DNA of 64,000 nt, from assembly GCA_003021785.1 (NCBI GenBank), contig PXQU01000003.1, positions 1-64,000 on the forward strand. The letters are read 5' to 3'. This stretch comes from Halobacteriales archaeon QH_7_65_31 (GTDB lineage: Archaea; Halobacteriota; Halobacteria; Halobacteriales; Haloarculaceae). Below the pieces are notes generated by a model, which saw nothing but the letters and a program-made list of their open reading frames with translations, did not search any database and was not told the origin of the DNA. The translations under genes were made by a program, and so were the position numbers. Numbering within the stretch: position 1 is the stretch's first letter; every line of letters starts with the position of its first letter. This document shows positions 105 through 14,657 of this stretch, in pieces.

Positions 105-3100
105 GCTTCAACCCCACGAGGATTCGTCTGTAACAAGCCGTCGTCGCTTGCCACGTCGTCACGACCAGTCAGCTTCAATCCCACGAGGGTTCGTCTGTAA
201 CCACGCTCACGGAGGCCATCAGATACCGCCCCCGAGCTTCAACCCCACGAGGGTTCGTCTGTAACCCGTCCCCGCCTGCTGCATCCGTTTTGAGAGCGAG
301 CGGCTTCAACCCCACAAGGGTTCGTCTGTAACCGATCCGAGTTCGATGTATCGCTGTGACTGCTGCAGGCTTCAACCCCACAAGGGTTCGTCTGTAACGA
401 CCGCACGCTGTGGAGTCTGCGGGCGCGCCTTCCGCTTCAACCCCACAAGGGTTCGTCTGTAACTCTCCATCCGTCGATTACCATCTCTCGGGGTGGTTCG
501 GCTTCAACCCCACAAGGGTTCGTCTGTAACGAGTCGATAACAGGCGATGAGTATCGGCATCTGCCGCTTCAACCCCACAAGGGTTCGTCTGTAACGCATA
601 TCGTTGAGGACACGATGCATGGACGCGTACTGCTTCAACCCCACGAGGGTTCGTCTGTAACTTCGCGTCCTCCAATGGGGATGATGTGGTCGGCTGGCTT
701 CAACCCCACGAGGGTTCGTCTGTAACCGGTCCCGTCGCACCGAGAGCACTCTTGATGGCCGCTTCAACCCCACGAGGGTTCGTCTGTAACAGGGATCGAC
801 GGAACGCGTTTCGGGTCTCGATGTCCAGCTTCAACCCCACGAGGGTTCGTCTGTAACCGTACGTCACCGCCGTGAACCGGGGTATCAGCCCATCGCTTCA
901 ACCCCACGAGGGTTCGTCTGTAACGAGCATATCCTCGGTTGGGACGCCGGCGTGAACGCGGCTTCAACCCCACGAGGGTTCGTCTGTAACGCGGTTCCGC
1001 ACTTGTCGCCGTCCCACGGATTGATGCTTCAACCCCACGAGGGTTCGTCTGTAACGGTGGGCGCGGCTGGTGGCGAGCATCGAGATCTCCTCGCTTCAAC
1101 CCCACGAGGGTTCGTCTGTAACCTGCTCGCTGATGTGAGGATTCAGCGTGGGCCTCTCGCTTCAACCCCACGAGGGTTCGTCTGTAACTCGGTGTCGACA
1201 CCATAATATCGAGACTTTGTTGGCCTTCAACCCCACGAGGGTTCGTCTGTAACGTGATTTCCCACCGGACCTTCCGACGGATTTTCGAGTCCTTCAACCC
1301 CACGAGGGTTCGTCTGTAACGAGACCGCCGCACAGGTGGCACGTTACCCCACTCGTCCCTTCAACCCCACGAGGGTTCGTCTGTAACCAGAACGGTTGTT
1401 CCGGTCGTTCCAGCCCGAAGGCCTTCAACCCCACGAGGGTTCGTCTGTAACTTTCCGGTCCAGCGTGTACTTCGGGCCGATCACGCCCCTTCAACCCCAC
1501 GAGGGTTCGTCTGTAACTCCCGTCCCGTGCAAGCACCCGGACTATCGGCGGCGCCTTCAACCCCACGAGGGTTCGTCTGTAACTCGTCGCCGTACTGACT
1601 GTCCGGGGTCGGGTCCCCGCCTTCAACCCCACGAGGGTTCGTCTGTAACCGAGCTGATCGCGTCGACGAGCTGCGCGACGATCTGCCTTCAACCCCACGA
1701 GGGTTCGTCTGTAACTCGATCCAAAATATAGAGTCCCACGGCGCGCTGTCAGCCTTCAACCCCACGAGGGTTCGTCTGTAACCTCTACTTCAGAAACAAG
1801 ATACGCCTCGTTATTGACCCTTCAACCCCACGAGGGTTCGTCTGTAACCTTTCGCAGCGGCTCGCTGCTCGTCACTCACCTCTGCCTTCAACCCCACGAG
1901 GGTTCGTCTGTAACATCCAAAGATGAGGAGTCGAGCCCATCCGCGTGCTTCCTTCAACCCCACGAGGGTTCGTCTGTAACGATGCCAGTTCTCCGCCCCA
2001 CTTCCCGGAGTTATCTCCTTCAACCCCACGAGGGTTCGTCTGTAACTAGCGTAACATTCCTTCCGACCGCCGTTCGCCGGTGACCCTTCAACCCCACGAG
2101 GGTTCGTCTGTAACCCTGCGCTTGGCGAGCGCGGCGCTCGCACGCGTCCCCCTTCAACCCCACGAGGGTTCGTCTGTAACCATGGCGAGCACAAGCGGTA
2201 GCAGTACCCGGACGGTCCTTCAACCCCACGAGGGTTCGTCTGTAACTATCGAGATAGCTATTTATCATGTCTTTGCCGCCGCCTTCAACCCCACGAGGGT
2301 TCGTCTGTAACTACAGTCCGACGACCACCACGGGCGGTATAAAGACCCTTCAACCCCACGAGGGTTCGTCTGTAACCAAAGTAATCCGGTCGCTTGTCCT
2401 CGTCTACGAGCACCCTTCAACCCCACGAGGGTTCGTCTGTAACGTTCGATTGGCTGTCATTCACCGATTTGTACAGGGTCCTTCAACCCCACGAGGGTTC
2501 GTCTGTAACTGTGTGGATTCATGGCATTCGATGGGGGTTCTTTGATCCTTCAACCCCACGAGGGTTCGTCTGTAACCGCCGGTCGGGTTCGGAACCTGCT
2601 GACGCGTCTCCTCCTTCAACCTCACGAGGGTTCGTCTGTAACTATCCAGATAGCTATTTATCATGTCTTTGCTGCCGCCTTCAACCCCACGAGGGTTCGT
2701 CTGTAACGAGATCACGGAAGCCGGCGGATCGGTCGCCGCCGTCCCTTCAACCCCACGAGGGTTCGTCTGTAACAACGAGATTTGCGTGGTCCGACACACC
2801 GACCGACTCCCTTCAACCCCACGAGGGTTCGTCTGTAACGCCGAGTTCTTTCGTCAGCATCTCACGAATTTCTCCCCTTCAACCCCATGAGGGTTCGTCT
2901 GTAACGCGACCGCGCAGGCCGAGGCCAGCCGACACGACGACCTTCAACCCCACGAGGGTTCGTCTGTAACGCGCGCCGGCTATATCACGGAGATAGTCAG
3001 CATCCCTTCAACCCCACGAGGGTTCGTCTGTAACCGTCAGCATCGGGGAGGGTAACTGATATGCCCGCCTTCAACCCCACGAGGGTTCGTCTGTAACTGG

Positions 3101-5387
3101 GCGACAGCGACCGACTGGGATAATGCTTCCAGTCCTTCAACCCCACGAGGGTTCGTCTGTAACACGCATATTCAAATTACAGCGCCCCGGCGATTACCCA
3201 CCTTCAACCCCACGAGGGTTCGTCTGTAACTAGCCGCTGAGCAGCACATCGAACTCCTGCCGCCCCCTTCAACCCCACGAGGGTTCGTCTGTAACGATCT
3301 CTCCCGACCGCGGCGAGCTGGTCCGCATCCTCCTTCAACCCCACGAGGGTTCGTCTGTAACGAGACGTTCACCGAATGTTTTGTCGAACAGGTAGCCCCT
3401 TCAACCCCACGAGGGTTCGTCTGTAACGGTCGTGGTCGATTGGGACCCGGCGGTGTCCGGCTCCCTTCAACCCCACGAGGGTTCGTCTGTAACTCGCGGC
3501 GACGATGTTCGGCGTGTTCAGTCTCACAGTACTTCAACCCCACGAGGGTTCGTCTGTAACCTACTACACTGTAGTTCGGGAGGATGGTGTCGCAACTTCA
3601 ACCCCACGAGGGTTCGTCTGTAACGGGCTGTTGTATGGTGGATTCCCCGCGATTAGCACTTCAACCCCACGAGGGTTCGTCTGTAACCGTCGCTCGCGAA
3701 CGATCCAGCCAGCACGGAAATCACTTCAACCCCACGAGGGTTCGTCTGTAACCGTGGCGATCCCCCGCGTAGCACTCCGGGACCGGCTCACTTCAACCCC
3801 ACGAGGGTTCGTCTGTAACGACCACGGTGCGACAGCCTCGCACGACTATCGGACACTTCAACCCCACGAGGGTTCGTCTGTAACCGAGCAACGACGCGGC
3901 ATGGACGCGCACGTCACATACTTCAACCCCACGAGGGTTCGTCTGTAACAGGGGCCACGTGTCTCGATGCTGGACGACGAGGGGCACTTCAACCCCACGA
4001 GGGTTCGTCTGTAACCCCTGTTCTGATTCCCACATCGGGACGTGTCACGCCACTTCAACCCCACGAGGGTTCGTCTGTAACCGTGGTCTCCGCGTCGGGA
4101 AGCGACGGTCGAAACTGACTTCAACCCCACGAGGGTTCGTCTGTAACGCGTTCAACGCGGTCAATCGCGGAGTCCAACGTAGTACTTCAACCCCACGAGG
4201 GTTCGTCTGTAACTCGACCGCGTCCCGGTCATCTGGCAGGAGTACGAGACACTTCAACCCCACGAGGGTTCGTCTGTAACGTGATCGCGTCGACGGTCCC
4301 GTCGTCGCCGTCCGGACTTCAACCCCACGAGGGTTCGTCTGTAACCCGCAGAGATTGACCCAACAGAGATGACTACAAGTACTTCAACCCCACGAGGGTT
4401 CGTCTGTAACCGCGACCGAGAAGGGGACCGCGTCGTAGAACTCGAAACTTCAACCCCACGAGGGTTCGTCTGTAACCGATTTCCGCGACGATCTTGAAGC
4501 CGATATCGCGACTTCAACCCCACGAGGGTTCGTCTGTAACACCGGTTGTATCTCCAGCGTCTTCCAACGCCTACTTCAACCCCACGAGGGTTCGTCTGTA
4601 ACCCGCTCTGCCGCCTCGCGGAGTGGGTCGGTCACAGCACTTCAACCCCACGAGGGTTCGTCTGTAACCATGTGCAAGGCCTGCAACCCCTACCACGAGC
4701 GCGAACTTCAACCCCACGAGGGTTCGTCTGTAACCAGCTGTAGCTCCCCCGACTACGGACCCAATAAGCCCACTTCAACCCCACGAGGGTTCGTCTGTAA
4801 CGGGCGCACACGGTCGATGGCTCTCGTCCGCGGTCACTTCAACCCCACGAGGGTTCGTCTGTAACCAACGTTTTTGCAGTAGGGTAGTGTAGCATTGACT
4901 ACTTCAACCCCACGAGGGTTCGTCTGTAACCCGGCGAGCCGCCGATCGTGTTCGAGCCGGGCGACACTTCAACCCCACGAGGGTTCGTCTGTAACGGCCA
5001 GCGACTTGCGCAGATAAACTCAGATTTCGAACTTCAACCCCACGAGGGTTCGTCTGTAACGAGGCGCTCACCGACGACGCGATGCTCGCGCTCGTACTTC
5101 AACCCCACGAGGGTTCGTCTGTAACTGTATACGGCCGTCGTGCGCTCGACCTCGGCGACCCTCACTTCAACCCCACGAGGGTTCGTCTGTAACGGCGATC
5201 TCGCCGGCGGCGAGGACGGTGACGCGACACTTCAACCCCACGAGGGTTCGTCTGTAACCCGGGCGACACACTCTACATCCGCGTCGGTGAGACTTCAACC
5301 CCACGAGGGTTCGTCTGTAACCTCCAAAAAATGCGGCCCTGCGTTGCCCTGCACCGCACTTCAACCCCACGAGGGTTCGTCTGTAAC
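105..5387 (-). CRISPR. Subtype I-B CRISPR array, 81 repeats and 80 spacers
   Basis: A 30-bp repeat recurs about every 62-68 bp. On the plus strand it begins [G/C/A]CTTCAACCCC and ends GGTTCGTCTGTAAC. Read as crRNA (minus strand) it begins GTTACAGACG and ends GGGGTTGAAG plus one variable base. I count 81 repeats (first 105-134, last 5358-5387) and 80 spacers of 32-38 bp. The cas genes lie at the 5387 end. The repeats at the other end are degenerate (105-134 has GAGGATTCG, 172-201 has CAATCCC), so the leader is at the right and transcription runs leftward. Five consecutive repeats (303-595) carry CACAAGGG instead of CACGAGGG. Isolated mutations sit at 2613-2642 and 2876-2905. The first plus-strand base is G in repeats 1-17, C in 18-52 and A in 53-81. 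Spacers 2247-2281 and 2643-2677 differ at only two positions. Confidence 0.98.
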
Positions 5388-5484
5388 CATGCCCAATTTA
5401 GAGCATTCACACGGTATACCGGCTACTCACGATTTAGTGTTTCCATCGACCCGCGATACCAGCTGTATCCCCGGAGGTCGATGA
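5388..5484 (-). promoter_or_regulatory. CRISPR leader between cas2 and the newest repeat
   Basis: These 97 bp separate the cas2 stop codon from the newest repeat and are AT-richer than the cas genes. On the minus strand the segment contains ACTAAAT (about 5439-5433) and TCTAAAT nearer the array, either of which could serve as a TATA element. A perfect 10-bp palindrome, CGGTATACCG, lies at 5412-5421. By analogy with other type I leaders it should hold the array promoter and the site where Cas1-Cas2 integrate new spacers. Because cas2 reads in the same direction, read-through from the cas operon is also possible. The promoter assignment is inference. Confidence 0.6.
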
Positions 5485-5748
5485 TCAGAGGAACTGCTGG
5501 TCGTCCATCGGGTCGTCACCGAACACCGAGCGAGTGACGTACTTCTCTGAGGACATCCGATAGAGCATGACCGACTCGCCCGGCTCCAACATCGACTCCA
5601 GCGTTCCCTCGATCGCTTCGACGTTCCCCTCCGTCAGTTCGCCTTCGAAGACGGAGTTCTGGACGTGGACGAGATACTGCCGGAGGTAGTTCAGGAACTT
5701 CGGGGTACGGTCGGCCTGCACGTCGTAGACGACGATGACGTACACCAC
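5485..5748 (-). CDS. cas2: CRISPR-associated endoribonuclease Cas2
   Basis: This 87-residue protein has the usual Cas2 length and ferredoxin-like start, MVYVIVVYDV, with the conserved Asp at residue 9. Cas2 forms the core of the Cas1-Cas2 integrase that inserts spacers next to the leader. The start is a GTG at 5748, with a second in-frame GTG immediately after it, so either could be used. The start lies one base after the cas1 stop codon, which points to translational coupling. It is the last gene of the cas operon, and the array leader follows directly. Family identification is firm; activity is inferred from the family. Confidence 0.95.
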   Translation of the reverse strand: MVYVIVVYDVQADRTPKFLNYLRQYLVHVQNSVFEGELTEGNVEAIEGTLESMLEPGESVMLYRMSSEKYVTRSVFGDDPMDDQQFL

Positions 5749-5749
5749 G

Positions 5750-6742
5750 CTACCACCACCGTTCGAAGGGGACGTACTCCTCGCCGGTGAGCAGATGCTT
5801 CTTCAGCTTGTACGCCTCGATCCGGAGCAGGTACTGGTAGCTCACCTTCCGGTTCAGCCGCGGATGCTCGATAGTCTCATCGAGCGTCTTCTCGAACGCC
5901 TTCGAGACGGTCTCGCGTCCCGACTCCGTGAGCAGACAGCCGTTCAGGTCGGTCTCGAACTCCTCGGGCGTGATCTGTGAGCGGTTCACGACGCGGAAGA
6001 CGACGCGGTCTGCAAGCACCGGCTTGAAGATATCCGCGATATCGAGCGCGAGCGAGTAGCGACGGTCGCCGGGTTCGTGAAGGAAGCTCACCGCGGGGTC
6101 GAGTGCCGTCGCACGGATCGCGGAGACGACGTTCGCGTACACGAGCGAGTTCGCGAAGGAGATGAGGCTGTTCACCTCGTTGTCCGGCGGGTTGTACTGG
6201 CGACCGCCGAAGACGAACCCGTCGGGAAGCACGTCGTCGAGAATCGAGTAGTACGCCCGCCGTGCCGTCGCCTCGACGCCCATCAGTTCGCTCACATCCA
6301 TTCCCGAATCGAGCGTCTCCTGTTGGGTGTCGAGCCGCTCGATGACCTCACCGAGATCGTGGCCGCGACCGTCGTAGTAGCTGACGTTCGCCCGCATGTT
6401 GTGGATGCTGGCGCGGATGAACTTCCGCGCGAGCGCCTGCCGACGCCCGGGCGTATCGTACGCGCGCACCTGCTCGACGACGGTTCGCCCGGAGGTCTGT
6501 CCGCGTTCGGGCATCACCGAGCCGGCGTAGTAGTCCTTCCAGCCGAAGACGTGGATCGCGACGCCGTGATCGTCGAGAAACGACATCACGCGCGTGTTGA
6601 AGTCGATCTGTCCGTGGAGAAACAGCGCCTCCGCGTTCTCGATCGGGAGATACGACTTCTCGTCGTCGAGCGTGACCAGCCGAACCGTGTCGTTGTGTCG
6701 CTCGATACGCCCGTCGCTGAAGATGTGGTAGTTGTCGTTCAT
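5750..6742 (-). CDS. cas1: CRISPR-associated integrase Cas1
   Basis: A 330-residue Cas1 of the archaeal I-B type. The catalytic metal-binding set is visible in the C-terminal half: a Glu in NEVNSLISFAN, the His in FLHEPG and the Asp in ALDIADIFKP. With Cas2 it integrates prespacers at the leader-repeat junction. The open frame continues twelve codons upstream, but I chose the ATG at 6742 because MNDNYHIF is the typical Cas1 beginning. It lies two bases after the cas4 stop codon, and the longer frame would overlap cas4. All acquisition genes (cas4, cas1, cas2) are consecutive here. Confidence 0.97.
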   Translation of the reverse strand: MNDNYHIFSDGRIERHNDTVRLVTLDDEKSYLPIENAEALFLHGQIDFNTRVMSFLDDHGVAIHVFGWKDYYAGSVMPERGQTSGRTVVEQVRAYDTPGRRQALARKFIRASIHNMRANVSYYDGRGHDLGEVIERLDTQQETLDSGMDVSELMGVEATARRAYYSILDDVLPDGFVFGGRQYNPPDNEVNSLISFANSLVYANVVSAIRATALDPAVSFLHEPGDRRYSLALDIADIFKPVLADRVVFRVVNRSQITPEEFETDLNGCLLTESGRETVSKAFEKTLDETIEHPRLNRKVSYQYLLRIEAYKLKKHLLTGEEYVPFERWW

Positions 6743-6744
6743 GC

Positions 6745-7320
6745 TCAACAGCTCCAACAGAAGTCGTGGTAGGCACACGACTCACAGAACGGCTTCTCCT
6801 CCGCCGGCGGGGGCGACTCACGGGTCACGACGCGGTGGACGCCGCGGATCGATTCTTCGACCCACGCGGCGTTCTCCTCGGTGAGCTCGACCGATTCACG
6901 CCGGCGCTCACGCGGATGTGCCAACACGCCGTCGCGACTGACCCCGACCACGCGATCCAGATACCAGAGGTAGTACAACAGCTGGAGCTTCGCCGGTTCG
7001 ACGAGCGATGAGGAGGGTTTCACCTCCATCACGCGCCCGTCCTCCAACACGTCGATAGCAATTGTGCCGTCGATGGAGAGATTCCGCCGCTCCTCCTCGT
7101 ACGCCGAGTCGTCTACCTGTGTCCCGCGGACGACGGCCGCGTTCTCGCGATCGATCTCGATGTTTCGCGATTCGAACCAGAGCTCGCGTTCACACACCTC
7201 GTAGTACTGCATCATGACGCCCGTGACGTGGAACTCGTTTTCCCGCGTCTCGTCGCGTGCCGAATCGAGAAGCAGCTCCACGGGATCGTCGGTCTCGTCC
7301 GCGCTGTCTGGATCGGTCAT
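6745..7320 (-). CDS. cas4: CRISPR-associated exonuclease Cas4
   Basis: A 191-residue RecB-like nuclease. An early Cys in YYEVCERELWF and a C-terminal cluster, CESCAYHDFCWSC, supply the ligands for the expected iron-sulfur cluster. The nuclease signature appears as Asp in DGTIAIDVL, then MEVKPSS (the E-x-K motif) and QLLYYLW. Cas4 trims prespacers and helps select the PAM and orientation during acquisition. The ATG start at 7320 overlaps the cas3 stop codon as ATGA. One extra Cys beyond the usual four is present at the very C-terminus. Confidence 0.95.
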   Translation of the reverse strand: MTDPDSADETDDPVELLLDSARDETRENEFHVTGVMMQYYEVCERELWFESRNIEIDRENAAVVRGTQVDDSAYEEERRNLSIDGTIAIDVLEDGRVMEVKPSSSLVEPAKLQLLYYLWYLDRVVGVSRDGVLAHPRERRRESVELTEENAAWVEESIRGVHRVVTRESPPPAEEKPFCESCAYHDFCWSC

Positions 7321-9896
7321 AGGAACTGATGGGAGACGCTGCTGTCGGGCACGACGAACCCCTTCGCCGTGTCGAAGTGGTCGCCGTGTTGGCGAACGTC
7401 CAGCTGATACAGCCCTTCGTCCTCGACGAGCAGCGGGAGTCTCTGGATCGCCTCTTTGCGCTCGTCGTCCCAGCCGTACGGCACGGAGATGCGGCGGGAC
7501 TTCGACTCGTCGAGCAGGCTGCGAAGCCGGTCCCAGTCGTACTCCTCCTCGGCGCGTCGAATGTCCTCCGCCAGCCGTCGGTCGGCTGCCGTCCGACAGA
7601 CGAGTATCTCGGCAGTCCGTCTGGCGTCGATGAGCGAGAGATCACCCAGTGCCGCCGCCCGTGCAGCATCGACGTGGTCGGCGTACTCCTGTTTTCCGAC
7701 GTTCTTCTCCTCGTGTAACCGGTCGTAGTATCGCGTCACTGCTCTGTCCGCGACGGCCTGCTCGGTCAGCGTTCCGTCGTCGCTCCGCACCTCGGCGAGC
7801 GTCTCGGCCGTCACCGGCAGGAGCGTGACGTCGCGGTTGTATATCTTCGCCGCCGGCGTCTTCGGCTGGTCGTCCGGTGCGTCGAGCCACCAGACGGTCA
7901 CCTGCCCCTGTTCGCGTTCGAACGACCGATTACACCGTCCTGCAGCCTGCACGATACTGTCGATAGGGGCGAGGTCGCGATACACGGTGTCGAAGCTGAT
8001 ATCCACGCCGGCCTCGATGAGCTGTGTCGAGACGACGGCGAGCGGATACCCGGACTCGGTGAGCCGCTTGGCCGCCTGAACGAGGCGGAGTCGATCAACA
8101 GGTCGAAGCCGGGTCGAGAGGTGTAACGTCGCAGCCGAACCTTTCTGCCGGACACGGCTCGCGATCGTCTCCGGCTGCACGCGCTCGGCTCCGTCTGTCT
8201 CCGCGAGCAGGTCGTCGTACGTCTCCGCGACGCTCACGTACGAGGCCCCGGACAGCTGTTCTGTCAGCTCGCGCGCGCTATCGATCGTGTTACAGACCGC
8301 GAGCGCGGAGTCCCCGTCGCCGAGCGTCCGCTCGAGCTCTGCTCCCGCGTCGTCGTACGATTTCGGCGTCCCGTCGCTCCGATTCGCCACGTACCGTTCC
8401 GTCGAGTCGTCGAGTTCGTACCGCACGCGCTCGACGGCGTCGAAGTACGACCCAGGGTCATCGACCAGTTCGGGGGCCTCGTTGAATAACTGTGGCTGTG
8501 TGGCGGTCATAGCGATCACCGTCGCGTCGTACCGCTCGGTCAGTATCGCCACCAGCCGCGGAACGAGCTTCCACCAGTCGAGCGGGAGACTCTGTGGCTC
8601 GTCGAGGACGACGACGGCGTTCTGGAGCGCCGGAAGCTTCAGTGACTGTCGGTTCGCCGGACCGGCGAGACTCTCGAACAGCTGGACGAACGTCGTCACC
8701 GTCAGTCCGGCACGCCAGCTCTCAGCGAGCATCCCGGCGACCTCGTCGCTCCTGTCTGCTTTCTCCTCGTCACCGCCGTCCTCGCGGATGACCGTCTCTG
8801 CGAGATGGTGGTGAGCAGTGAGCAGCCCCTCGGTCCCGTCCGTCTCGTATATCCCCTCCAGCTCGTCGACCACCTGATCGATGATGCTCGTGAACGGGAG
8901 CGCATAGACGACCCGTTCGCCGTCGAGCCGCTCGCGGAGATCGAGCGCGCCCGAGAGCCCGGTGAGCGTCTTTCCCAGTCCGGTCGGGAGCGTGAGCGTC
9001 GCCACGCCGCCGCCGGTCGCGGCGAACCGCTCCGTCGCGTCGAGCACCTCCGCGCGAGCGCGCGAGCGGTGGTAGTTCAGCCGCTGTTCGCGCGTTCCGT
9101 CTCTGTCCGCCGCCGCATCGGCCTCCAGCTGTTCGATATGCGACCGGAGCGTCGCTCGCGGTGGCTTCGTCGCCTCGTACGTCGATGCGTCCCGCGCCGT
9201 CCCCGCTGCACTCGTCTTATCAGCGAGCGTCAGCGTGCTCCAACACCGCAGGACGGTCGCATAACAGTCCGACGAGAGAGCCTCCTCGTCCACGCCGCTC
9301 ATCGCTCCGCGCCCCGTAACTGTCGCCGTTATCTCATCGAGCAGTGAGACGAACCCGTGGGCGAACTCGTCCCACGACCCGCTCCCGTCGGTTGCCCGCT
9401 CGAACACCTCAACAGCGAGGTCCGACGCGTGGTCGTCGATGTCGCGTATCTGCCTTGCGACCGTTCGCTGTCGGTCGGTCACCTGCGTCTCCGGATCGCC
9501 GTCGTTCCGATTCGCTCTGTCGTTGATATACGCCGCCACGTCCGGAAGCTCGCCGTGGTGTTTCGCGACCGCGACGAAGCCGGCGAGACAGGTTTCGGTC
9601 TCGAAGCCGCGAGCGTCGAGCGCGTAGTACGCCGCGAACGACCCCAGCGGCGCGTGATAGCGCAGCGCCGAGTCGTCGGGTGAGTCGTCGTCCAGATACG
9701 ACTGGAAGTAGCTCGTCGCCTTCCCCACGTCGTGCAGCCACGCGAGCGTCTCGACGACCGCACGAACCGACTCGTCTGCCGGTGTCGTCACCGACGCCGG
9801 CACGACATGCGGGACGCGAGCCGCGACGTCGGCCAGATGCTCACGGAGCAGCACTCCCGGCTCGCCGTGCTCCGGGGGATGTGAGTAGATCGCCAC
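7317..9896 (-). CDS. cas3: CRISPR-associated nuclease-helicase Cas3 (HD plus helicase)
   Basis: An 859-residue protein with an N-terminal HD nuclease and a C-terminal superfamily 2 helicase. The HD pair is at residues 55-56 (WLHDVGK), followed by HAPLGSF and AKHHGELPD. The helicase has Walker A LPTGLGKT near residue 300, DEPQ near 430, TATQP just after, and QAAGRCNR near 650. Cas3 unwinds and degrades target DNA once Cascade has bound. The open frame extends to 10664, but that part is the shadow of cas5. I chose the GTG at 9896, which overlaps the cas5 stop as TAGTG and gives the normal family start. Confidence 0.97.
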   Translation of the reverse strand: MAIYSHPPEHGEPGVLLREHLADVAARVPHVVPASVTTPADESVRAVVETLAWLHDVGKATSYFQSYLDDDSPDDSALRYHAPLGSFAAYYALDARGFETETCLAGFVAVAKHHGELPDVAAYINDRANRNDGDPETQVTDRQRTVARQIRDIDDHASDLAVEVFERATDGSGSWDEFAHGFVSLLDEITATVTGRGAMSGVDEEALSSDCYATVLRCWSTLTLADKTSAAGTARDASTYEATKPPRATLRSHIEQLEADAAADRDGTREQRLNYHRSRARAEVLDATERFAATGGGVATLTLPTGLGKTLTGLSGALDLRERLDGERVVYALPFTSIIDQVVDELEGIYETDGTEGLLTAHHHLAETVIREDGGDEEKADRSDEVAGMLAESWRAGLTVTTFVQLFESLAGPANRQSLKLPALQNAVVVLDEPQSLPLDWWKLVPRLVAILTERYDATVIAMTATQPQLFNEAPELVDDPGSYFDAVERVRYELDDSTERYVANRSDGTPKSYDDAGAELERTLGDGDSALAVCNTIDSARELTEQLSGASYVSVAETYDDLLAETDGAERVQPETIASRVRQKGSAATLHLSTRLRPVDRLRLVQAAKRLTESGYPLAVVSTQLIEAGVDISFDTVYRDLAPIDSIVQAAGRCNRSFEREQGQVTVWWLDAPDDQPKTPAAKIYNRDVTLLPVTAETLAEVRSDDGTLTEQAVADRAVTRYYDRLHEEKNVGKQEYADHVDAARAAALGDLSLIDARRTAEILVCRTAADRRLAEDIRRAEEEYDWDRLRSLLDESKSRRISVPYGWDDERKEAIQRLPLLVEDEGLYQLDVRQHGDHFDTAKGFVVPDSSVSHQFL

Positions 9897-10693
9897 TACA
9901 CGAACACCACCGTTCGGTCGCCGACGCGAGCCGTCTCGACGCCGTCTGCCCTGAGCGACCCGCCGTCTGTGTTGTACGCGTACGTCGTGAACGCTGTCGT
10001 CGTCCGTCCGGCGTCGTCGGTCGTCATGAACGCCGGCGACTCCTCGATTCCGCTGTCGACGCCCGCCTCTACGATCAGCGAGTCGACCGCGTTCGGCACT
10101 GCGGAGTCGATCTCGACCGTTCCCGACGGCGGCTCCGTCTCGACGGCGAACTCGCCGTGATACTCCAGCTCGGCGAGATACTCCGAGAGGCCGAGACTCG
10201 GGACGTAATGCGATTGCCCGGCATCGAGCATCCCGCGCAGCTCGGCGTACCGTTCCTGATCGCGCAGCGTCACGTCGATCCGGTAGGCCGGCTCGACGAG
10301 CACCTCGTAGTTGTGCTGCTGGCGAAGCGCGCTCGGGTCGGGGAGCTGCACCGAGGGCTTCCCTCGGCTGTTGAGCGATCTGAGATTCCCCTCCGCGGTC
10401 GAGAGCGAGTTCATCGGCATATTGACCGTCCGAAGCCGGCTGACCGGTTCGATAGCGATCGCCGACTCGTCCGGCCCGAACAGCTCGTAGTAGCCGTCTC
10501 GCTCGATACCCAACACCGCGGCGAGCAGTCCCGCGACCGTCGTCCGGGGCATGACGTGGTACGTCTGCTTGACGACGTTCCCCTCGACGCGACGGAAATG
10601 CCCCCACGGTCCGCGAACGGTCACCGAGAGACAGCGATCGGGAAACGCCTCGTCGTCCGTCCACTCGGTGAGCGGTTCCTGTCCCATCGTCAC
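9896..10693 (-). CDS. cas5: CRISPR-associated protein Cas5 (I-B)
   Basis: A 265-residue RAMP-fold Cascade subunit. The N-terminal region carries the haloarchaeal Cas5 signature CLSVTVRGPWGHFRR, followed by PRTTVAGLLAAVLG. Cas5 caps the crRNA 5' handle and contacts Cas8b. Two starts are possible: GTG at 10693, which overlaps the cas7 stop codon as GTGA, and ATG at 10687 two codons later. I list the longer one because of the coupling, but the ATG is equally plausible. Its stop overlaps the cas3 start by one base. Confidence 0.95.
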   Translation of the reverse strand: MTMGQEPLTEWTDDEAFPDRCLSVTVRGPWGHFRRVEGNVVKQTYHVMPRTTVAGLLAAVLGIERDGYYELFGPDESAIAIEPVSRLRTVNMPMNSLSTAEGNLRSLNSRGKPSVQLPDPSALRQQHNYEVLVEPAYRIDVTLRDQERYAELRGMLDAGQSHYVPSLGLSEYLAELEYHGEFAVETEPPSGTVEIDSAVPNAVDSLIVEAGVDSGIEESPAFMTTDDAGRTTTAFTTYAYNTDGGSLRADGVETARVGDRTVVFV

Positions 10694-11757
10694 TCGGCCG
10701 CCGCGAGCGTCTCCAGATGCTCGTCGTACACGTCGATCACGTCGACCGCGTCCGCACCGACGGCGTCACGGAGTGCGTCGTAGAGCAGGTCCGGGCCGCC
10801 GGGCTCCCCACCGCGTGTGAACTGGAGCACGTCGCTCGCGACGACGCGAACGCGAGCGATCTGCTCGCTCGCACCGGCCAACCGGTCGACGAGCCCGTCC
10901 ACCTCGATCGCGAGATCGCGGACGTTCCGAAGCTCCTCGTCCGGCTTCGACGCCGCCTCGTCGAGCCGGAGGTCCTTGTCGAGCCCGCCCAGATGGTAGC
11001 TCTCTTCGTCGTACTCGACGCGGAGATAGAGCCGCGGCTCCTGTCCGACCTTGCTCCGGGAGATAGTCTGATTCTTCAGCGCGCGCCAGCAGAGCGTGTC
11101 GAGTCGTCGCACGTCCTCGTCGGTGAGCTTCGTGTTCTCTGCGCCGTGTTCGTCCACCAGCCCGTGGAATCGAATCATCCCGTACTGGATGCGGTGGTCG
11201 TCGAGATCGAAGCCGCCCTGCTCTTTCCCCTCCTGTGTCGCGATGACGCTCGTCAGGCTATCGTACTCCTCGTTCTCGTTGACGGCGTGCATCGTCTTCC
11301 CGGGCGAGAACTGCACCGGGCCGGTGAAGTGGTCCGGCAGGTGGTCGTTGTACGTGTTGTCGACGGACATCGTCGCGCCGAAGTAACGAACGTCGGCACT
11401 CGTTTCGAGAAACGTGCCGAAGATCTCGTCCCGGAACTTGTCTGCTTCCTCGTCGTCGTCGAGATCGTAGTCGTCCGGATCGACGGCCTTCAGCCGGTCT
11501 TCGAGCAGCTGTGCCCGGGTGAACTGCTCACCCTCTTCTTGGACGTTGCGGATGTAGACGCCGTGGCCGTCGTCGTCGAGCTGATCGCGGAGATACCGCT
11601 TCAGCCGCACGTCGGTGACGATCGCCTGCTGTGTCTGTGGGTCGATTCGCGGGCGGTTCGAGCCGCTGAGCGGATTTCCGTTGGGGTTCGCATCGACTGC
11701 GTCGTACAGGAAGACGATCTCGGAGCGGTTCGTGACGGTGTCGGTAGTGTCTGTCAT
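10690..11757 (-). CDS. cas7: CRISPR-associated protein Cas7 (Csh2 type, I-B)
   Basis: A 355-residue RAMP-fold protein with the haloarchaeal Cas7/Csh2 beginning EIVFLYDAVDANPNGNPL and the DPQTQQAIVTDVRLKRYLRD stretch. Cas7 forms the Cascade backbone that wraps the spacer part of the crRNA and also stabilises Cas6-processed crRNA. The ATG at 11757 follows the cas8b stop codon by one base. Length and motif order match the family. Confidence 0.96.
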   Translation of the reverse strand: MTDTTDTVTNRSEIVFLYDAVDANPNGNPLSGSNRPRIDPQTQQAIVTDVRLKRYLRDQLDDDGHGVYIRNVQEEGEQFTRAQLLEDRLKAVDPDDYDLDDDEEADKFRDEIFGTFLETSADVRYFGATMSVDNTYNDHLPDHFTGPVQFSPGKTMHAVNENEEYDSLTSVIATQEGKEQGGFDLDDHRIQYGMIRFHGLVDEHGAENTKLTDEDVRRLDTLCWRALKNQTISRSKVGQEPRLYLRVEYDEESYHLGGLDKDLRLDEAASKPDEELRNVRDLAIEVDGLVDRLAGASEQIARVRVVASDVLQFTRGGEPGGPDLLYDALRDAVGADAVDVIDVYDEHLETLAAAE

Positions 11758-11758
11758 G

Positions 11759-13858
11759 TTAGGTTTCCTCGTCGGTTTCGTTGCTCGTCGCGCGGTCGTT
11801 CATCCCGTAGGTGACACCGAGCGCGTAGTAGAAGCGCAGGTCGTCGGTGTCGAGCACCCACTCGTCGGGTTCGGGGTTCAGGACGGTTCTGCGGAGCCGT
11901 TCGACGATATGATCGAACTTCGTCACCGTCCGGCTCTCCTCGCGGGTGTACGTCACCGTCTTCCCGATCGCCTCCTGTGTCACCTTCTTGATTCGTGTGC
12001 GCGTGATCGACTTCACCGGGAACTGATCGATGAGCGTGGTCGAACGCCCCAGATCGTACCCTTGGTAGTTCCCGACCGCGCCGACAAGCGCGCCCAGCAG
12101 GAACGCGCCCCGGCGCTGGTCCGTGGTGTCGTCGTCATCGCTCGGCGCGATAGCGGGCGTCTGTTCGATGAACGATTCGAGCTTCGACTCCCCGGGGTTA
12201 CCCCCGTCGGGCAGGATAGCTTCGACTGTTTCCATTGGTGGTGTCTCGTAGGTCGGTTCGCGGGTGATCGGCTCCTTCGTGTCGTCGGTCGTCGAGAGCA
12301 GGTCCAGCTCGTCGTCGGCCAGCGCACACAGCTGTGCGAACTGGCTCGCGACGCGGAACACCGGGAATCCGTCGCGGTCGTCGTCGTCCGCGTCGGCGGT
12401 AATCCGGTCGGTGTACTCGTCCAGCAGCTGCTCGACGGCGATCGATTCGCCGCTCAACACGGCGACGAGCGCATCGATGCGCGGGTCGTCTTCCGCCGCC
12501 TCGTCGTCGTCGTGCTCGGCGAACGTCTGGGTGAAGTACCAGCCCGTCGTCACCGAGTCAAGCTGGTCGTCGCTGCCGGCAAGCAGCGCCCAGTTCTCGT
12601 TCGTCGGCAGCGGAGCCGTCCACTTGTCGTCGGTGAACGGCTCCGTCTCGGCGACCGCGTTGTGCGCGAGCGCGAGCTGTCTCGGATAGAACAGCCGTCC
12701 GTTCAGCGTCTCGCCGACCACGTCGTACCGAGAGGTCTGGTGTGCGAGGACGGCGGAGACGTAGAACCGTAGCTCGGCGTCCTCGAACACGTCGTCGCCG
12801 CCGCGCTCCTTCGTGTACGCCGCTTCGACGGGGTTGAGTCCGTCGTCGTCGAGGGTGTCGTACAACAGCCGGTAGAGGTTCCGCGCGTCCTCCGGGGTGA
12901 TCGTCCCGAACGGGTACGGGAGATAGAACACCTTCGCCCCGAGGGCGTAGAAGGAACACGCGTCGGTGAACGCGTCGGCGTTCATCACCGTCACCGCGGA
13001 GTCCTCCGAGATCGGATGGCTTCGCCACGCCTGCTCGACATCAAGCCCGGGGAACTTCTCGCGCTGTTTGCCGAGGAAGTGGTTCTGTGGATCGTCGGCC
13101 GTCCCGACCGTGCGCGTCTGTGCCCCCGTGACGATATCGATGGCCTCACCGGAGGAGTCGTTCGCCTTGTTCTTGGTGACGAGCTTCGAGAGCTTCCGCT
13201 CGCGCATCGCAGACAGGAACACGTCCCGCTGGCCGGGCCACAGATACTCCTCGCCGTCGAGCGATACCTGTACCGTGAGCAGTGCCGTCGCAGACTCCCC
13301 GTCGAGTGCGTCGGTCAGTTCGGTCTCGATGCGGTCGAGACTTTCCTCATCCTCGCCGAGTGTTGCGAGGCTGTCGATGATCCAGCCGGAATCGTGATCG
13401 GCGGCGGCGTCCTGAACCACGTCGTCGACCGCCCACTTCGTCAGCCGCTCTTTCGCGTAGCGGGCCAGCTTCTCCGGATCGCTGTTCCGCCCCGCTTGGT
13501 GGGTGACACTGTGATCGATTCCCCGGGCGGCGGCGTACTTGCAGTGTGCGACCTCCGTCACGAGATCGTCGGTGTAACGCGTCACGTGAACGGGACCACG
13601 ATCATCGTCGGCCAGCTGCGGCTGCTCCGCCGACAGATCGACGCGGACTACGACGAGACTGTCGTCGGTATCGATCAGGTCGCCCGCGGCGTCGGGCGTC
13701 AGATACGGCGCGTACTCACCGCCACCGGTCGTGGCGAGCGTGTACAGCTTTCCGTACAGATACTGGATATCCCGCAGCGAGCCGACGGGAGAGTCGGGTA
13801 GCTCCGCGGCGAGCGCCTCGTCGGAATACTCCGTCCGGAACGCCTCAGGCGAAAGCAT
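11759..13858 (-). CDS. cas8b: CRISPR-associated large subunit Cas8b
   Basis: A 699-residue large subunit of the haloarchaeal I-B effector, responsible for PAM recognition and for recruiting Cas3. Identification rests on its place between cas6 and cas7, its length, and the C-terminal region RRGAFLLGALVGAVGNYQG typical of Cas8b/Csh1. I chose ATG 13858 (MLSPEAFRTEY) over the frame start at 13882. It gives a 14-bp overlap with the cas6 end, whereas the longer form adds a basic peptide that looks like cas6 in another frame. An in-frame ATG at 12235 would yield a separate 158-residue C-terminal product, a candidate Cas11-like small subunit. Confidence 0.93.
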   Translation of the reverse strand: MLSPEAFRTEYSDEALAAELPDSPVGSLRDIQYLYGKLYTLATTGGGEYAPYLTPDAAGDLIDTDDSLVVVRVDLSAEQPQLADDDRGPVHVTRYTDDLVTEVAHCKYAAARGIDHSVTHQAGRNSDPEKLARYAKERLTKWAVDDVVQDAAADHDSGWIIDSLATLGEDEESLDRIETELTDALDGESATALLTVQVSLDGEEYLWPGQRDVFLSAMRERKLSKLVTKNKANDSSGEAIDIVTGAQTRTVGTADDPQNHFLGKQREKFPGLDVEQAWRSHPISEDSAVTVMNADAFTDACSFYALGAKVFYLPYPFGTITPEDARNLYRLLYDTLDDDGLNPVEAAYTKERGGDDVFEDAELRFYVSAVLAHQTSRYDVVGETLNGRLFYPRQLALAHNAVAETEPFTDDKWTAPLPTNENWALLAGSDDQLDSVTTGWYFTQTFAEHDDDEAAEDDPRIDALVAVLSGESIAVEQLLDEYTDRITADADDDDRDGFPVFRVASQFAQLCALADDELDLLSTTDDTKEPITREPTYETPPMETVEAILPDGGNPGESKLESFIEQTPAIAPSDDDDTTDQRRGAFLLGALVGAVGNYQGYDLGRSTTLIDQFPVKSITRTRIKKVTQEAIGKTVTYTREESRTVTKFDHIVERLRRTVLNPEPDEWVLDTDDLRFYYALGVTYGMNDRATSNETDEET

Positions 13859-14657
13859 CCGCACCCTCCAGCTCCGTCTCACCGGGCCGTGTTCGCTCGA
13901 CGACGTTGACGAACCCGAAGCCGAGCCCGTTCCGACCGCCGAGCCCGGTGTCGAGCGCGAGGTTCAGATGCCGGCGGTGGGTGTCGTCGCGAACCCGGTA
14001 GCCGAACCGCCACTTCGAGACGACCAGCTCGATCTCGACGCCGGTCGTCACCGTCGTCGGCAGCGCGTACGTCTTGAGCAGCTCGTATCGGTCGAACAGC
14101 CGCTCGTCCACCTCGGTCGGACTCGGAACGTACGCCGGCGCGAACCGGTCGTGTTTCCGTGCGAGGCTCCCGTCGAGCGCGTCTCGAACCGGCTCCAGCC
14201 CGTGCTCGGGTTGCCAGTACGTCGGCGTTCCGGACTCGCCGTCGATACCGTACGCCTCGCGCCGTTCGTCGTAGAACCGAACGACGACGCCCGTCGCCGT
14301 CTCGATGACCCCTCGCGTTCCGGGCTCACCGACGTCCGGCTCGACCTGCGTGAGATCGGTGACCGTGAACGGCATGTCGCCGACGTTGAACTCCGGATTC
14401 GCCTTGAGCGACGTCGCTATCGCCGCCAGTAACCCCTCGCGAGGTGAGGCGAGGAGCAGCGACCGCTCGTCCCCCTCGGTGATCTCTCCCCACGGAAAGA
14501 TATTCGAGAAGCAGAGTCCAGTCGGCTCCGCCCCGTCGTGTTCGGACTCGTACTCCGTCCCGTCCAGTGCCCGCCACAGCCGGCCACGCAGTTTGTGATG
14601 GTAGCTCGTCCGGTACGCGACGTCGGCATCGGCCTCTAACTTGACTAACAGCCGCAT
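13845..14657 (-). CDS. cas6: CRISPR pre-crRNA endoribonuclease Cas6
   Basis: A 270-residue Cas6. The C-terminal glycine-rich signature LDTGLGGRNGLGFGFVNVV is clear, and a candidate catalytic His occurs in the early YRTSYHHKLRG. Cas6 cuts within each repeat, leaving the 8-nt 5' handle on mature crRNAs. It is the first gene of the eight-gene operon, so the operon promoter should lie directly upstream. The end overlaps cas8b by 14 bp in another frame. Confidence 0.95.
   Translation of the reverse strand: MRLLVKLEADADVAYRTSYHHKLRGRLWRALDGTEYESEHDGAEPTGLCFSNIFPWGEITEGDERSLLLASPREGLLAAIATSLKANPEFNVGDMPFTVTDLTQVEPDVGEPGTRGVIETATGVVVRFYDERREAYGIDGESGTPTYWQPEHGLEPVRDALDGSLARKHDRFAPAYVPSPTEVDERLFDRYELLKTYALPTTVTTGVEIELVVSKWRFGYRVRDDTHRRHLNLALDTGLGGRNGLGFGFVNVVERTRPGETELEGADAFA

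Follow-up and report, generated by a model that had tools for sequence, protein, structure and literature searches.

A haloarchaeal type I-B CRISPR array with ordered blocks at the last repeat base, probably inherited by copying of the leader-proximal repeat

Introduction

In the type I-B system of Haloferax volcanii, C, U or A work as the last base of the CRISPR RNA (crRNA) handle (position -1), whereas G abolishes interference with a target carrying the protospacer-adjacent motif (PAM) TTC; whether this base comes from the invader is described there as not known (PMC4326828). In Escherichia coli type I-E, the last base of the repeat, which takes the same crRNA position beside spacer and PAM, is PAM-derived (Swarts 2012, PMC3338789). 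Changes in a repeat propagate through later repeats during duplication (CRISPRDetect, PMC4869251), and degenerate terminal repeats carry changes near the repeat 3' end (PMC8047081). Here we analyze a CRISPR (clustered regularly interspaced short palindromic repeats) array of 81 repeats at the start of a 64,000-nucleotide stretch of DNA (the window; contig PXQU01000003.1, positions 1 to 64,000) from the salt-loving archaeon Halobacteriales archaeon QH_7_65_31. The array lies on the minus strand (105-5387); read in crRNA sense, its repeat is 30 nt long and base 30 becomes handle position -1. It shares with Haloferax the subtype and a C at -1 but differs in naturally carrying G in 35 repeats and T in 29. 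In E. coli, the base tracks each protospacer's PAM; in the window array, it is passed on through long blocks, and one spacer that also occurs in another array of the same genome has a different base there.

Three ordered blocks at base 30 of the window array

A parse of the 81 repeats gave three base-30 blocks with zero mixing, all read on the minus strand. The oldest, repeats 1-17 (105-1188), ends in C (G on the plus strand), the middle one, repeats 18-52 (1224-3493), in G (plus strand C), and the youngest, leader-proximal one, repeats 53-81 (3531-5387), in T (plus strand A). The original prediction had placed three unmixed blocks at exactly these repeats and positions, and the parse bears it out. 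If the 81 letters are shuffled, a perfect three-block order (blocks in any order) arises with a probability of ~3e-35. As a control, the longest run of one base is 35 at base 30 compared with 3 for the base before the repeat and 4 for the first spacer base. The leader is on the right-hand side of the array, where cas2 adjoins it, and the T block is therefore the newest.

A contiguous leader-side block with one common change is the pattern of an inherited repeat mutation. Degenerate terminal repeats resemble the window array in that their changes lie near the repeat 3' end (PMC8047081), but there the change sits in the trailer-end repeat whereas here all newer repeats carry it, and base 30 departs from that of the oldest block in 64 of the 81. 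Position 17 forms a block of its own, separate from base 30, with T in repeats 4-8 (303-595, minus strand) and C in repeats 3 and 9-81. The original prediction described the base-30 blocks correctly and missed this second one. Repeats 4-8, which lie within the oldest base-30 block, may represent a reversal or a transfer from another array of the genome (the 54-repeat array on contig C13, below). Changes confined to a single repeat occur in repeats 1, 2, 39, and 43.

The blocks probably reflect copying of the whole repeat from the leader-proximal repeat, with changes at base 30 inherited in order. Each spacer addition would copy the entire 30-nt repeat, the last base included, from the leader-proximal repeat, and a rare base-30 change in that repeat, presumably a substitution, would pass to every later repeat. 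The array would thus retain a record of these changes in successive blocks (C to G to T), with the oldest at the trailer end. The original prediction had also held that the base is copied in this way and not drawn from the PAM; this part gains support from the block order, from a spacer shared with an array that ends in C only, and from 11 inherited base-30 switches in 7 of 86 arrays sampled from other genomes. Its further suggestion that the changes began as ordinary point mutations is less secure, given that base 30 is a hot spot.

Alternatively, the blocks could be pieces of different arrays joined by recombination, which we hold to be very unlikely. The main C13 repeat recurs unchanged in window repeats 4-8, and one array of our survey (L096) is a mosaic at several positions, both of which fit such an origin. 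However, the three block consensuses match at all other 29 positions, no run of spacers is common to other arrays, and no other G-ended array was found when this genome was scanned for repeats not ending in C. That scan returned 62 reverse and 2 forward matches, corresponding to the G and T repeats of the window (64 minus two with core changes) and two repeats of contig C1.

A spacer shared with a second array of the genome

A second array of the same genome, on contig C13 (L010), has 54 repeats with T at position 17 and C at base 30 in 54/54. Its spacer 37 (37 nt) begins with the complete sequence of window spacer 54 (34 nt; 3561-3594, minus strand) at full identity, i.e., the 5' ends of the two spacers coincide and their 3' ends differ. 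The shared spacer follows T in the window array and C in the C13 array. Because the 5' ends are the same and the 3' ends are not, the two copies most likely stem from separate acquisitions at one protospacer start and so next to one PAM. One protospacer start with two handle bases implies that the base belongs to the array and not to the invader. The -1 handle base thus seems to come from the array in this haloarchaeal I-B genome, which addresses for one such genome the question left by the Haloferax work.

These data bear most directly on the idea that the last base is taken from each protospacer's PAM, in the E. coli type I-E manner, and that the blocks record shifts in PAM preference from C to G to T. 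The E. coli precedent speaks for it, as does the usual Haloferax C being the last base of the PAM TTC (PMC4326828). We nevertheless find it highly improbable, given that C persists through all repeats of the C13 array, in one and the same genome, and that one protospacer start stands after C there and after T here. Judged from the arrays themselves, the long blocks and this double occurrence do not appear to be those of an I-E-like, PAM-derived base.

Apart from the two arrays of this genome, the shared spacer was absent from 116 genomes (≤3 mismatches), and none of the 6,912 spacer records (5,661 distinct) placed a window spacer in another genome. Protospacers were sought in several collections. 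For two complete arrays and most of a third (L040, used from 6500 onward, with the array starting at 5358), each run as a single query, 50,697 phage records contained no credible match; one search gave a weak hit to a Gordonia phage (E 0.5). Eight spacer stretches of 22 or 23 nt likewise lacked an exact counterpart in IMG/VR; they were taken from four window spacers (two of them at base-30 switches) and from four spacers at the switches of the survey arrays L132, L095, and L088. A plasmid search with the two window switch spacers returned weak Rhizobium matches (E 0.03) or nothing. Comparison of the 6,912 spacer records with survey DNA outside arrays gave 49 rows, none of which was PAM-informative and several of which were overlaps of sampled loci. 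In ~100 kb of the organism's own DNA, examined for self-targets, there was no full-length match among the matches listed (longest 34 nt at 76%, lowest E 5e-4). Window spacers 34 (2247-2281) and 40 (2643-2677) share a common start and show two differences; they are probably two acquisitions from related viruses.

The genome contains two further arrays. One is another C13 array (L158) of 14 repeats with C at base 30 throughout, in which a change at position 20 splits repeats 1-12 from the two oldest. The other is a decayed array of 10 repeats on contig C1 (L009, 2158-2768) in which several repeats are degenerate and repeat variants are mixed; the sequence preceding it is unlike the other leaders.

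Inherited switches in haloarchaeal arrays

So that the last base would play no part in the choice of arrays, we sampled them via a search with the window Cas1, which matched 101 of the 391 genomes of the class (103 matches in all). The array side was retrieved for 100 of the 103 matches, excluding the window's own locus and the two weakest, and 87 loci yielded 90 arrays with 4,671 repeats. Two L079 pieces and one L140 piece were dropped because of their register and L120 because it was too short, which left 86 arrays with 4,450 repeats. An inherited switch was defined by runs of at least two repeats on both sides, the trailer-most repeat being excluded.

By this definition, the 86 arrays contain 22 inherited switches, and half of them (11/22, spread over seven arrays) fall on base 30, compared with an expectation of 1/30 (binomial p ~3e-11). 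Seven of the 11 switches at other positions belong to a single array, the mosaic L096, whose blocks change at positions 5, 9, and 17. The count of 11/22 includes a scaffolded array of Halobellus captivus, which is excluded from the following shares: base 30 accounts for 10/21 switches without it, for 10/14 with runs of at least three repeats, and for 9/10 with runs of at least four. This array (sampled as L027, L044, and L135) shows N gaps where repeats end, and some of its spacers recur with differences confined to the first 1-2 bases; it looks like an assembly problem. The principle is the same as that described with CRISPRDetect (PMC4869251), to which the sampled haloarchaeal arrays add that a single position, the last base, accounts for half of all inherited switches. 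The window array thus looks like a clear case of a known principle, while the regularity, a hot spot at the PAM-side base, appears to be new. Among the titles and opening abstracts listed in literature searches, none concerned such last-base blocks in I-B arrays, the dominance of that base, or a same-spacer comparison, although the 2025 survey of array repeat mutations by Mitrofanov may have reported similar patterns.

Scanning detected non-C repeat ends in 29 of the 391 genomes, the window's own included, and the leader-proximal base is non-C at 13 of the 87 survey loci. The fastest switcher among the arrays seen, L088, has four successive base-30 blocks in 17 repeats (C4, T4, G4, A5) followed by a degenerate last repeat, with no leader-side change other than that of base 30; one identical spacer occurs in two of its T units. 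The array L132 (also sampled as L037) has C in 9, A in 18, and T in 17 repeats above two odd terminal ones, and L095 has C in 20 and T in 118. Long G-ended arrays exist as well (L076, 27/27; L154, 69/71). By contrast, the long array L059 has no switch, with C at base 30 in all 224 repeats, and adjoins a Cas1 81% identical to that of the window. Arrays picked for their non-C ends had suggested a ratchet in which C is lost and never regained; this is ruled out by L075 and L085, in which base 30 goes back to C.

Why base 30 is the hot spot

The survey arrays also contain 70 single, non-inherited changes, of which seven are at position 28, eight at position 29, and seven at base 30. Blocks of at least two repeats are absent from positions 28 and 29, such that among the last three positions only base 30 forms them. 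Blocks relate to singletons as 11:7 at base 30 and as 11:63 at the other 29 positions (Fisher p 2e-4). From one array to another, positions 28 and 29 hardly vary, as would be expected of bases required in integration or crRNA processing. By the singleton counts, the 3' end changes more often in place, and base 30 could be the only base at that end that is dispensable for repeat recognition at integration. Base-30 changes seem either to originate or to persist more frequently than changes at other free positions: the positions 4, 9, 11, 15, 17, 20, and 23 together yielded six blocks, all but one in L096, and 19 singletons (Fisher p 0.03 against base 30; 3e-4 without L096).

Among the switches from C, T is the commonest new base (5/8), and this excess of C to T matches what is expected of ordinary substitution. 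Non-C states switched in 9 of 508 steps compared with 8 of 3,691 for C states (Fisher p 5e-5), a count that includes single-repeat runs, is dominated by few arrays, and serves here as the basis of no conclusion. Over long times, base 30 would go back to C, probably by way of crRNA function. We thus prefer an account in which substitutions pass a selective filter, and keep as an alternative that base 30 is written at integration.

Such writing might take two forms. In the first, a one-time integration error would place the leader-distal cut 1 nt short, such that 29 nt are copied, the new spacer lends its first base to the repeat as base 30, and the result is inherited from then on. This slip would account for the hot spot at base 30 and for an array such as L088, which switches every 4-5 repeats without other leader-side changes. 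It also predicts that the spacer at a switch is 1 nt shorter than the array mean, whereas the observed difference over 18 events is -0.27 nt (standard error 0.22; two events from the window, 13 from the survey, and three from arrays picked for non-C ends, with three events having a single older C repeat). Moreover, T is the rarest first base of spacers (851/4,545) and yet the commonest new base after C. We consider the slip improbable.

In the second form, the PAM-side end of the prespacer would sometimes overwrite base 30 at integration, a rare and heritable counterpart of the I-E reaction that leaves spacer length unchanged. Overwriting would limit the changes to base 30, spare the length of spacers, and account for the long-term C. 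If most PAMs end in C, however, a return to C should dominate the changes that follow non-C blocks, and it makes up 4 of 9, a weak count in which single-repeat runs are included; in addition, searches with switch spacers located no protospacer for any of them. We see overwriting as an unlikely route, and substitution in the leader-proximal repeat followed by selection remains our preferred explanation.

Several observations weigh against this explanation in its simplest form. In the decayed array L009 of the same genome, base 30 is T in repeats 2 and 10 amid C, i.e., interleaved, although several repeats there are degenerate; the absence of interleaving claimed in the original prediction thus applies to the perfect blocks of the window array, and L009 speaks against it as a strict rule. 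The case for independence from the PAM comes from a single shared spacer pair, for which neither a protospacer nor a PAM was found. The three base-30 switches within 17 repeats of L088 are awkward for a uniform mutation rate. The share of base 30 drops to 15/58 once single-repeat runs are counted. Finally, variation between arrays amounts to 1.05-1.51 bits at positions 4, 11, 17, and 20 compared with 0.87 at base 30, and these four positions gave one block switch apart from L096. As these more variable positions yield few blocks, plain tolerance of change fails to explain the hot spot at base 30.

Possible consequences for crRNA function

By the Haloferax result, the crRNAs of the G block are predicted to be inactive, unless the Cas5 or the PAM of this lineage differs. 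The long G-ended arrays L076 and L154 indicate that G is tolerated in at least some species. A more far-reaching and rather doubtful reading is that base 30 acts as a heritable switch, occasionally written by integration, that sets the efficacy of later crRNAs. The G block would then represent a disabled era of 35 spacers, rescued by the change to T (U in the crRNA), during which the second, C-only array would have remained functional. The observations would carry greater weight if the G block were indeed inactive or if the integration reaction wrote base 30. Base 30 offers a free internal and layered date mark for arrays, and a single site at which to examine jointly how precisely repeats are copied and how the crRNA handle works.

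Leader, cas genes, and subtype

The leader comprises the 97 bp between cas2 and the first repeat (5388-5484, minus strand) and is identical at 77 of 97 positions to the 97-base segment that precedes repeat 1 of the 54-repeat C13 array. Eight cas genes follow on the same strand: cas2 (5485-5748; NCBIfam TIGR01573), cas1 (5750-6742; TIGR03641), cas4 (6745-7320; TIGR00372), cas3 with its HD and helicase parts (7317-9812, start provisional; TIGR01596 and TIGR01587), cas5b (9896-10693; TIGR02592), cas7 (Csh2; 10690-11757; TIGR02590), cas8b (Csh1; 11759-13861 as scanned, within an open frame reaching 13882; TIGR02591), and cas6 (13845-14657; TIGR01877). All eight proteins score above the NCBIfam curated cut-offs, with I-B-specific models matching cas1, cas5, cas7, and cas8b and general cas models matching the other four; the locus is accordingly of type I-B. 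The repeats belong to a known family, with 81 matches to Rfam RF01337 (CRISPR-DR24), for which the Rfam output gives no link to a subtype. In the neighborhood of other arrays, the Cas1 match adjoining L132 is partial with an internal TAG stop, and a second Cas1 match lies on another contig of that genome. The DNA preceding L158 reads like cas2 in two different frames.

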